Source of the DNA: a bacterium
GTDB lineage: Bacteria > Myxococcota > UBA727 > JAUIJE01
Reading direction: 5' to 3'
Assembly: GCA_030431455.1 (NCBI GenBank)
Contig: JAUIJE010000001.1
Location: 682,001-746,000 of the forward strand
DNA length: 64,000 bases
Each line of letters begins with the position of its first letter. Within the stretch, counting starts at the first letter, position 1. Shown one piece after another: positions 43,243-49,902 of the stretch. The position numbers and the translations under genes were made by a program. The notes under the pieces were generated by a model. The model made no database searches. It saw only the letters and a list, made by a program, of their open reading frames with translations, and was not told the origin of the DNA.

Positions 43243-43590
43243 TTCGGTTCTGCGTTCCGACGTCGGATTCCGATCTCTGAGTCGGAGGTCCGAATCTGAG
43301 CTCCGACCTCGGGTTCCGGTTCCGGATGCGGACCCGGTTCCGGATGCGGTTCCGACGTCGGGTTCCGGTTTCTGAGTCGGATGTCCGAATCTGATGTCCG
43401 AATCTGAGCTCCGACCTCGGGTTCCGGTTCCGGATGCGGACCCGGTTCCGGACCCGGATCCGGATGCGGACCCGGTTCCGGATGCGGTTCCGGGTCCGCG
43501 TTCCGACGTCGGATTCCGACTTCTGAATCTGATGTCCGAATCTGAGCCCCGACCTCGGGTTCCGGCCTCGGGTGCGGTTCCGACGTCGGC
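43243..43590. repeat. Repeat array B between two genes
   Basis: This gene-free stretch of almost 350 bases is filled by higher-order units of roughly 80-110 bases. They are made of GTCCGAATCTGAGCTCCGAC, CTCGGGTTCCGG and GGATGCGGACCCGGTTCCGG blocks. Blocks recur three to four times with small differences. No ORF, hairpin terminator or CRISPR-like spacer pattern is seen. The array ends at the stop of the DUF3500 gene. Confidence 0.88.
43371..43448 (+). repeat. 78-bp perfect direct repeat, copy 2
   Basis: Identical to 41988-42065 at every base, same orientation, within array B. Confidence 0.93.
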
Positions 43591-45302: not shown

Positions 45303-45436
45303 GCCGGCTCCGTTTCCGGTTCTGGTTCTGTTTCCGGTTCCGGTTCCGGTTCCGGTTCTGGTTCCGGCTCCGGTTCCGGTTCTGTTTCCGGTTCCGGTTC
45401 CGGTTCCGGTTCCGGTTCCGGTTCCGGTTCCGGTGA
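45303..45436. repeat. GGTTCC array C
   Basis: About 20 near-perfect tandem TTCCGG hexamers, with scattered TTCTGG and CTCCGG variants, start right at the TetR stop. Simpler than arrays A and B and without the CCGAATCTGA units, but built on the same hexamer. Confidence 0.85.
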
Positions 45437-45897: not shown

Positions 45898-45980
45898 GCG
45901 AGCCCGAAGTGGTCGGGGCTCGCAACGTCGTGCGACTCGTTCGACCACGAGGCGAGGGGCGAAGCCCTTCGAGGCCTCGT
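45898..45980. terminator. Hairpin cluster between convergent genes
   Basis: An 8-bp stem (45898-45923, loop of ten) is followed by a long imperfect stem at 45947-45980. The latter pairs ACGAGGC with GCCTCGT and GAGGGGC with GCCCTTC (one G-T), capped by GAA. It lies exactly between the four-helix gene and the converging porin-like gene, so it probably stops transcription from both sides. Confidence 0.55.
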
Positions 45981-47314
45981 CAGAAGGTGACCGCGACGTG
46001 GGCGATGAGGCGGAAGCGGAAGCTCTCCTCGACCTTGAAGCGGCGTCCCACGGTGTCGACCACGGGGTTGTAATAAGGATTGCGCTCGCCGTCCTGCAAA
46101 TCGAGGCTGACCACCTCGTCGCGGGGCACGTCTTGGAACAGGGCGATGGTGCGCGGGAGCAGGCCGGGCGCGGGGCAGCCCCCGTCGCAGCCGATGGGCT
46201 CGGTGGTGAGGAAGTGGGGGGTGTCGTAGAGCACCGAGCCGGTCACGTCGAAGTAGATGAACTTCCAGGCCCGGAAATAGACCTTGGCCGCGGCCCCGAG
46301 GCGCACGAACTCGTCGGTGAAGGTGAGCTCGGCGAGGGCATCGGACAGCTCGGAGTAGTCGCGGCCGGGGGAGAAGTAGCGGCCGGTCACGCCGACGTCG
46401 ATGGCCAGCTTCTGGTCAAACTCCTCGTACTCGTAGGGCACGATTTCGGTGCCAAGCCAAAAGCCCGCGTCGTGGCGAGGTTCGAGCCCGAGCTGGGCGT
46501 CGGAGGCGCCGATGGGGAAGTTGTAGTCGAGCACAAAGTAGGGGTCGATGATGAAGAACTTCTTCGAGATCGCGGCCAAGCCATGGAGCCGGTGGGTGCC
46601 ATCGGCGACGAAGGTGGAGATGCCGTCTGCAGGGTCATTGGCATCGAGGGCCACCGGCAACGGCAAAAAACCCACGTTGGCGAGCTTGTAGTCGGCCTGG
46701 AGGGTGATGGTGGGCTTGGTGTCGTCGCGCTCTTGGTTGACGGGCGAAAAGCGCAGGCCGAACCGGGGAAACTCAATGCCACTGCGTGTCTTTTCGTAGC
46801 GGCCCTCTTGGGTGAGGTCGAAGCGCCAATCGTTGTGTTGCTGGTTGCGCTCGGTGCCGGGGATGCCGTACTCGGTGGCGCGCTCGGGCCAGCTGTCGAT
46901 GGTGGGCTCGTTGGTCATGTCCCGGGCGATGGTGGAGTTCTGTGCGGTGGTGCCTTGGGTGAAGCCGTAGAACTGCTGGTCCCAGAGGCGGATCGGCCAC
47001 TGCACGAAGAGCGACAGATCGTGAAACAGCCCGACCTCGATGCGCGGCATCAAACGCGCGGTGTGCCGGGTGTAGTCGAGCTCGCGGGTGAGGATGGAGC
47101 GGGGGGGCCCGCCGGCCTCGGGGACCTGGGTGTTTTCCCGGGAGAGCAGGGCGCGCTGGAAGGTGTACTCGAGGGTGAGCTCGAGATTGAGATCGAAGGG
47201 GTCGTCGCCGTCGATGGCATCGGCCACGTCCGTGACCGCGGCCGCGCGCGCGGGCGGGGCGGCGAGCACCGCCAGGGTGAGGAAAGCTCCCCCGATCGCG
47301 AAAAAGCGCAGCAT
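45980..47314 (-). CDS. Putative outer-membrane beta-barrel protein
   Basis: 444 residues from ATG 47314 (GTG 47317 is an alternative). A signal peptide ends around A-R-A (residue 25). The mature protein alternates hydrophobic and polar residues in strand-length blocks (for example L-E-L-T-L-E-Y-T-F, A-R-L-M-P-R-I-E-V-G-L, A-K-V-Y-F-R-A-W) and ends in V-A-V-T-F, the C-terminal aromatic signal for barrel insertion. One Cys pair lies near residue 375. It resembles transporter or porin-like barrels of Myxococcota. Its substrate is unknown. Confidence 0.7.
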   Translation of the reverse strand: MLRFFAIGGAFLTLAVLAAPPARAAAVTDVADAIDGDDPFDLNLELTLEYTFQRALLSRENTQVPEAGGPPRSILTRELDYTRHTARLMPRIEVGLFHDLSLFVQWPIRLWDQQFYGFTQGTTAQNSTIARDMTNEPTIDSWPERATEYGIPGTERNQQHNDWRFDLTQEGRYEKTRSGIEFPRFGLRFSPVNQERDDTKPTITLQADYKLANVGFLPLPVALDANDPADGISTFVADGTHRLHGLAAISKKFFIIDPYFVLDYNFPIGASDAQLGLEPRHDAGFWLGTEIVPYEYEEFDQKLAIDVGVTGRYFSPGRDYSELSDALAELTFTDEFVRLGAAAKVYFRAWKFIYFDVTGSVLYDTPHFLTTEPIGCDGGCPAPGLLPRTIALFQDVPRDEVVSLDLQDGERNPYYNPVVDTVGRRFKVEESFRFRLIAHVAVTF

Positions 47315-47428
47315 CACGGGGAAGTTATGGGGGGCGACAGGCCAGGGTCAAGTTGTTGCCAGCGCCCCGGGGCGCGCGCGGGCGCCGTCCGGCCTGTCCG
47401 CCCGCGACCAGACTCGACCGCCCTGGTG

Positions 47429-47440: not shown

Positions 47441-48091
47441 GTGTTCACCCGTGCACCCGGCCAGGGCCGTGCTCGTCGGGCGGGGGCGTTTGCCGCCCTG
47501 GCCGCGGCGCTGTGTGGCGCGGGCTGCGACCCCGCCGGCGGACTCGACGCGGGGCTGGGGGGCACCGACGCCGGGCGCGCCGTCGACGCGGGGCCGCGCG
47601 GGACGTGCCCGCCCGCGCCCCCGTTCGGCACCGACACCGGTGATTACGGACCCAACGTCAGTCTCGATGACTGCGACGGGGTGGCCCACAGCCTGTTCGG
47701 GCTGTGCGAAGAAAAAGCCTCGTGGCTGTTCGCCTTCGCCAGTCATTGAAACAGCTGCCACCGGGTCGCCCGTGAGGTGATCGAACCGCTGTACCAGGCC
47801 GAGCGCGAAAACGGCCTGCAGGTCTATTTCGTCATCTTTCACGACGCCGCGGGTGACTTGCCCTCGGCCGGACACTGCGCGCTCAAACGAGAAGAGCTGG
47901 GCCTGTCCATGCCCGTGCTCTTCGACGGCGCGGGCGTGTTCCAGACCCTCTACGGCGTGGACGAGAGCGACACCAGCTTCGTGTTCGCCCGGGGGGGCGA
48001 GATCGTCGCGCGCAGCCACGCGGACAACGACGGGGTTGTGCAGCTGTTGCATGAGCTGCTCGACGCGCCGGACCCCGACGCGGGGCCGTGA
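47441..48091 (+). CDS. Thioredoxin-fold lipoprotein, probable selenoprotein (TGA = Sec103)
   Basis: 216 residues if the in-frame TGA at 47747-47749 is read as selenocysteine. The N-terminal part has a signal sequence ending near G-A-G-C and an Asp-Ala-Gly linker. It runs into the first strand of a thioredoxin fold (W-L-F-A-F-A-S-H). The frame then continues after TGA as N-S-C-H-R-V-A, giving Sec-x-x-Cys in place of the family's C-x-x-C. The following 110 residues complete the fold (V-Y-F-V-I-F-H, M-P-V-L-F-D, T-S-F-V-F-A-R-G-G-E-I-V). The downstream part has no start codon at its beginning. Sec would make it a redox lipoprotein, perhaps a TlpA- or peroxidase-like reductase. A hairpin follows the TGA. 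Confidence 0.8.
47750..47779 (+). promoter_or_regulatory. Candidate bacterial SECIS hairpin
   Basis: Sixteen bases after the TGA, CGGG and CCCG pair around a TCG loop. A second CAC/GTG stem lies below, with a 4-base bulge. A GGTC sits at the top, as in the E. coli fdhF element. The distance fits the known range for SelB-binding hairpins. The fold is short, so this is support rather than proof. Confidence 0.4.
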
Positions 48092-48109: not shown

Positions 48110-48480
48110 ATGTCAACCGCACAAACGCTGCAGTCTGATTTTCGCGTCGAACACGATTGGCTCGTGGTGGTGACCACCGCGCAGCCGTCCGGGCCAGGAA
48201 CCGGGGCGGTGTTGGCCGAGGCCGATCGGTTGCTGCAGCAACATGGGGTGCGGGGGGTGCTGTTCGATACCCGCGGGGTGTTGCCCCCCACCGAGGACGC
48301 GCGGAGGTTGTGGTGGGCCTGGGCCGAAGCGGGTGTGCACCACGATGCGGTGGCATTGTTGGTCGAGTCCGAACTCACCCGCATCTCGGGCAACATGACC
48401 GCCATGTCCCGGGGGGCCAAGGTCCGGTCCTTCCACGTGTGGGCCGACGCCGAAGCTTGGCTGCGCGCGGTGGCGGCCGC

Positions 48481-48493
<13 letters not shown>
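48110..48493 (+). CDS. Small STAS/SpoIIAA-like protein
   Basis: 127 residues. It alternates strands and helices in the order expected for an SpoIIAA-like fold: W-L-V-V-V-T-T near the N-terminus, V-R-G-V-L-F-D-T-R-G-V, V-A-L-L-V-E-S-E, V-R-S-F-H-V-W-A-D-A-E-A-W-L. There is no conserved phosphorylatable Ser where anti-anti-sigma factors have one. Family SpoIIAA-like proteins of this type are uncharacterised. Its last 13 bases overlap the end of the convergent sigma-54 regulator gene. Assignment rests on overall pattern only. Confidence 0.55.

Positions 48494-49902
<1,409 letters not shown>

Follow-up and report, generated by a model that had tools for sequence, protein, structure and literature searches.

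An in-frame TGA at the first CxxC position of a Myxococcota thioredoxin-fold gene: a predicted selenocysteine in a probable lipoprotein

The locus and its reading frame

The window, by which we mean the whole stretch of 64,000 nucleotides analysed here (contig JAUIJE010000001.1 of assembly GCA_030431455.1), carries on its plus strand a gene with one internal in-frame TGA besides the TGA that terminates it (48089-48091). This gene, its parts and its neighbours are as follows, in window positions:

45980-47317, minus strand: neighbouring protein gene, no Pfam match
47441-48091, plus strand: the whole gene, from its GTG to the closing TGA, 216 residues including the predicted Sec103, resting on homology on both sides of the internal TGA
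47441-47527, plus strand: signal peptide and probable lipidation site Cys29 (LCGAGC), by the lipobox of homologues
47528-47605, plus strand: flexible Asp-Ala-Gly-rich linker (pLDDT below 60 in the model; similar linkers in relatives)
47606-48070, plus strand: thioredoxin-fold domain of Redoxin/ResA type (PF08534, AlphaFold, Foldseek)
47747-47749, plus strand: in-frame TGA, predicted selenocysteine 103 at position 1 of CxxC (Cys or TGA in this column in all aligned homologues)
47756-47758, plus strand: resolving Cys106 of UxxC, invariant in alignment A3
47764-47782, plus strand: SECIS-like hairpin of 7 pairs with loop CGUGA, 21 nt past the TGA (published bSECIS constraints, synonymous recoding)
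48110-48493, plus strand: small ORF of 127 residues, 18 nt past the selenoprotein stop, with only weak Pfam matches (DUF7793)
48481-49902, minus strand: two-component regulator of NtrC type

Both the coding signal and the homology continue through the internal TGA. Codon usage after it favours the gene frame (+0.50 bits per codon, versus -1.12 and -1.44 for the remaining plus-strand frames) and does so more weakly before it (0.04 versus -0.85 and -0.99), whilst homology to the read-through protein spans both sides. Coordinates and coding signal thus agree with the original prediction that the frame is the same before and after TGA 47747. The codon does stand at the first Cys of a C-x-x-C motif, followed by AAC AGC TGC (Asn-Ser-Cys), and its residue number of 103 is correct; automatic annotation would end the selenoprotein at residue 102.

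No start earlier than GTG 47441 is available, as a stop sits just upstream. No Shine-Dalgarno sequence is evident ahead of this GTG, a scan for promoter and terminator consensus at the gene gave no match, and an Rfam scan of the gene region returned nothing relevant. The small ORF downstream is possibly co-transcribed with the selenoprotein gene, and no redox partner gene adjoins the latter. Elsewhere in the window, hexamer tandem arrays of CCGGTT/TCCGGA type lie at gene ends or between genes (43312-43565 and 45304-45434).

Exchange of cysteine and TGA, and the hairpin that follows

Homologues of the read-through protein occur in 21 of the 97 genomes of the phylum, and a profile built from five members drew in many more thioredoxin-fold proteins. 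About 65 distinct homologous domains were aligned, and three more Cys members were added later. A search of the genome collection with alignment A2 added three Cys homologues and recovered two already known, one being the TGA gene of genome G040; plasmid records held no homologue. The presence of Cys at column 103, proposed earlier as a check, is clear: every aligned domain has Cys there except eight TGA genes in four genomes, namely the window gene, L029 (G040), L077 and L134 (G002), and L078, L079, L080 and L135 (G043), and no homologue ends at the TGA. All four genomes with TGA members have a selA match above the family cut-off. The family tree is poorly resolved; the Sec label needs about three changes on it, yet the tree is compatible with a single origin of Sec in the family. 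No second in-domain TGA occurs anywhere in the roughly 65 domains; TGA as an ordinary sense codon was considered and ruled out, as the gene itself ends in TGA and the homologous domains hold no other.

The machinery required is at hand in the window's own genome (7.7 Mb, 96.9% complete), where all four sel genes on which the prediction was to stand or fall were found: selD, selA and selB adjoin one another on contig 12, and tRNA-Sec (selC, anticodon UCA) lies about 31 kb away. Four further genes of this genome have TGA at canonical Sec/Cys sites (L046, L092, L094 and L111, on contigs 12, 8, 7 and 12), and encode, in this order, selD itself (motif GGGUAAK), a peroxiredoxin of PrxQ/Bcp type (TPGU), a protein resembling AhpC/SelL (HWUPAC) and a formate-dehydrogenase-like molybdopterin enzyme, fdhA (NCSRGUHAP). 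Counting the window gene, the genome thus has at least five genes predicted to encode selenoproteins.

Bacterial SECIS elements are described as having a loop of 3-9 nt, a stem of 4-16 pairs, a G in the first two loop positions, a spacing of 16-37 nt and a minimum free energy of at most -7.5 kcal/mol (PMC13188914). The hairpin downstream of the TGA (stem GGUCGCC/GGUGAUC, loop at 47771-47775, -7.8 kcal/mol) fits this description throughout. A hairpin at SECIS distance had been predicted and is indeed there; the GGTC said to lie near its tip is instead part of the 5' stem arm, the loop being CGUGA. On folding energy alone it does not surpass dinucleotide shuffles (z about 0), and for this reason we adopted a position-constrained test by synonymous recoding. 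In 2000 recodings of the window gene a hairpin obeying the constraints was uncommon (p 0.022), and across the eight TGA genes the hairpins are stronger than recoded ones (combined p 1.6e-6, an optimistic figure since these genes are partly related), whereas the same test after the Cys codon of 11 Cys homologues gave a combined p of 0.22. The hairpin of L077 is weak (-2.5 kcal/mol), and the test can miss genes, given that PrxQ and fdhA, with clear Sec sites in the window's own genome, do not stand out in it. A SECIS role for the hairpin at 47764-47782 is thus supported statistically.

One Cys homologue deserves separate mention. L009:1411-2040, in G040, has TGT in place of TGA, yet a strong SECIS-like hairpin (GUUCGCC GGGUC GGCGAAC) follows, and its register is that of the TGA genes. 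Both L029 and L009 retain all seven pairs in the register of the window gene; in this comparison both bases of pair 2 differ (G-U to U-A), and one base of pair 5 does. Given its TGT, L009 may have kept a fossil SECIS, possibly the remnant of a Sec-to-Cys change; the conservation of the nearby amino acids and a contig coverage of only about one call for caution here.

What else might a TGA at this position be? It could have arisen by nonsense mutation or sequencing error in a Cys gene, leaving a pseudogene or, in the latter case, a gene that is in truth intact: TGC and TGT are each a single substitution away, and the genus is represented here by one genome. Such an event is very unlikely considering that eight TGA genes share the column and that all four of their genomes carry selA; moreover, the TGA of the seven other genes is found nowhere else in the domain, the genome has the Sec machinery and other Sec genes, and a SECIS-like hairpin follows. 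We give this account hardly any weight. Equally improbable in our view is a real stop at 47747, yielding an exported peptide of 102 residues with or without a second product, for example from GTG 47777, which lies 27 nt past the TGA and opens a frame of 104 residues. The split would cut through what is predicted with high confidence to be one compact domain, the homologues are single proteins, and the downstream frame on its own has neither an active site nor a signal peptide. Selenocysteine at TGA 47747, by comparison, is a prediction that we regard as very well supported.

Predicted fold, export and chemistry

The protein matches PF08534 (Redoxin) at 28.0 bits, against a gathering cut-off of 26.6, over residues 67-196, with Sec in the UxxC motif; AhpC/TSA models match as well. 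In the AlphaFold model, block-mean pLDDT is 94-98 from residue 61 to 210, whilst the N-terminus and linker are of low confidence, and UxxC begins helix 104-124, placing U103 at the N-terminal end of the active-site helix. By Foldseek, the solved structures nearest to it are those of DsbE from Chlorobium tepidum and of ResA, with peroxiredoxins ranking lower. AlphaFold and Foldseek thereby uphold the view that the sequence on both sides of the TGA forms one thioredoxin-like domain, and a fold of ResA/TlpA type is predicted with high confidence.

Fold and active-site placement are held in common with the ResA/TlpA/DsbE (CcmG) thiol-disulfide oxidoreductases (PDB 3gl3, 1st9, 2f9s), which differ in their low identity to the window protein (about 16-24%), in having Cys for Sec and in keeping the cis-proline. 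A lipid-anchored structural match is Etrx2 of Streptococcus pneumoniae (PDB 4hqz, 2yp6), likewise thioredoxin-like, but a Cys protein of a Gram-positive host with about 20% identity.

Is the protein a lipoprotein, as first proposed? The idea draws its support more from the family, where every one of the 13 homologues whose N-terminus is intact fits the strict PROSITE pattern PS51257, than from the window protein's own lipobox, LCGAGC, which departs from that pattern; lipidation of the window protein is therefore likely, but less sure. Judged from these N-termini, it is probably exported and lipid-anchored. We posit that SelB, guided by the hairpin just downstream, would insert Sec from tRNA-Sec at UGA 47747, and that the product would be exported, most likely via the general secretory route, and lipidated at Cys29, with the flexible linker tethering the domain to the envelope. 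There, Sec103 and Cys106 could form and break a selenenylsulfide, and in doing so reduce envelope proteins at their disulfides or oxidised thiols.

That the window protein acts as a disulfide reductase is something we infer, and the subfamily leaves room for doubt. ResA has a cis-proline; in alignment A3 (placement by eye) the usual cis-proline position is not a proline in the subfamily of the window protein, and this absence makes the reductase role uncertain and leaves room for another function. At this site, about residues 176-179 of P0001, L009 and L029 carry HVH, a possible pointer to Sco-type metal (copper) ligands. Perhaps, then, this is a selenoprotein of different chemistry, acting as a peroxidase, for instance, or binding a metal. 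The matches to Redoxin and AhpC/TSA models would suit such a function, as would the missing cis-proline with its His in two relatives, and the additional conserved cysteines (Cys78, Cys89 and Cys146); the UxxC motif and the ranking of ResA and DsbE above peroxiredoxins speak against it, and we consider it unlikely, if well worth keeping in mind. The Cys/TGA exchange, the full sel set and the thioredoxin-like predicted fold favour the Sec-x-x-Cys redox protein originally proposed, and it seems to us highly probable that the gene encodes a thioredoxin-fold protein of Redoxin/ResA/TlpA type with SelB-inserted Sec, most likely exported, lipidated and redox-active.

Possible envelope selenoproteins in the phylum

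Catalogued prokaryotic selenoproteins already include Redoxin-family UxxC (PF08534) and Prx-like thiol:disulfide oxidoreductase UxxC (PF00578) proteins (PMC13188914, Table 1), and such UxxC Redoxin/Prx-like proteins are likewise listed in a second catalogue (PMC9312934). Compared by catalogue description, the window protein shares the Pfam family and UxxC of the former, and so adds to a kind of selenoprotein that is already catalogued (PMC13188914). Neither catalogue mentions lipoproteins or Myxococcota (PMC13188914, PMC9312934). NF041054, a ResA-like WAxxUGC selenoprotein family, is similar in its ResA-like fold and in having Sec at motif position 1; the related proteins L077 and L080 match it weakly, whereas the window protein, with the motif SHUNSC, has no match.

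Among the Sec relatives, five Sec-x-x-Cys proteins of G002 and G043 (L077:632-1351; L078:711-1391, minus strand; L080:691-1395; L134 near 639; L135 near 591) have lipoprotein-like N-termini and, ahead of the thioredoxin domain, acidic repeats that resemble bacterial TSP3 and fall just under the Pfam cut-off. A larger Sec protein, L079:45-1241, has LVIVD repeats together with an Ig-like domain, and its C-terminal domain is a redoxin with UPVC; the loop of its SECIS-like hairpin is AGGU, similar to the SECIS loop of E. coli fdhF.

What is less documented is the recurrence of tethered Sec-x-x-Cys lipoproteins in Myxococcota, together with one Cys paralogue with a possible fossil SECIS. Literature searches, of incomplete coverage, found no selenoproteome paper on Myxococcota, and looking by phrase for selenoproteins that are exported or lipoproteins gave, with the same incomplete coverage, nothing relevant. 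We put at even odds a reading in which Myxococcota repeatedly place Sec in UxxC lipoproteins tethered to the envelope, with two architectures or more (a linker rich in DAG, or acidic TSP3-like repeats), in which Sec and Cys forms interchange and one Cys paralogue or more, L009 among them, keeps the hairpin, and in which these proteins would make up a class not yet described as such. The pairs of Sec and Cys forms, along with the possible fossil SECIS, provide material with which the gain and loss of Sec can be tested, and the finding suggests that selenium chemistry takes place at the Myxococcota envelope.
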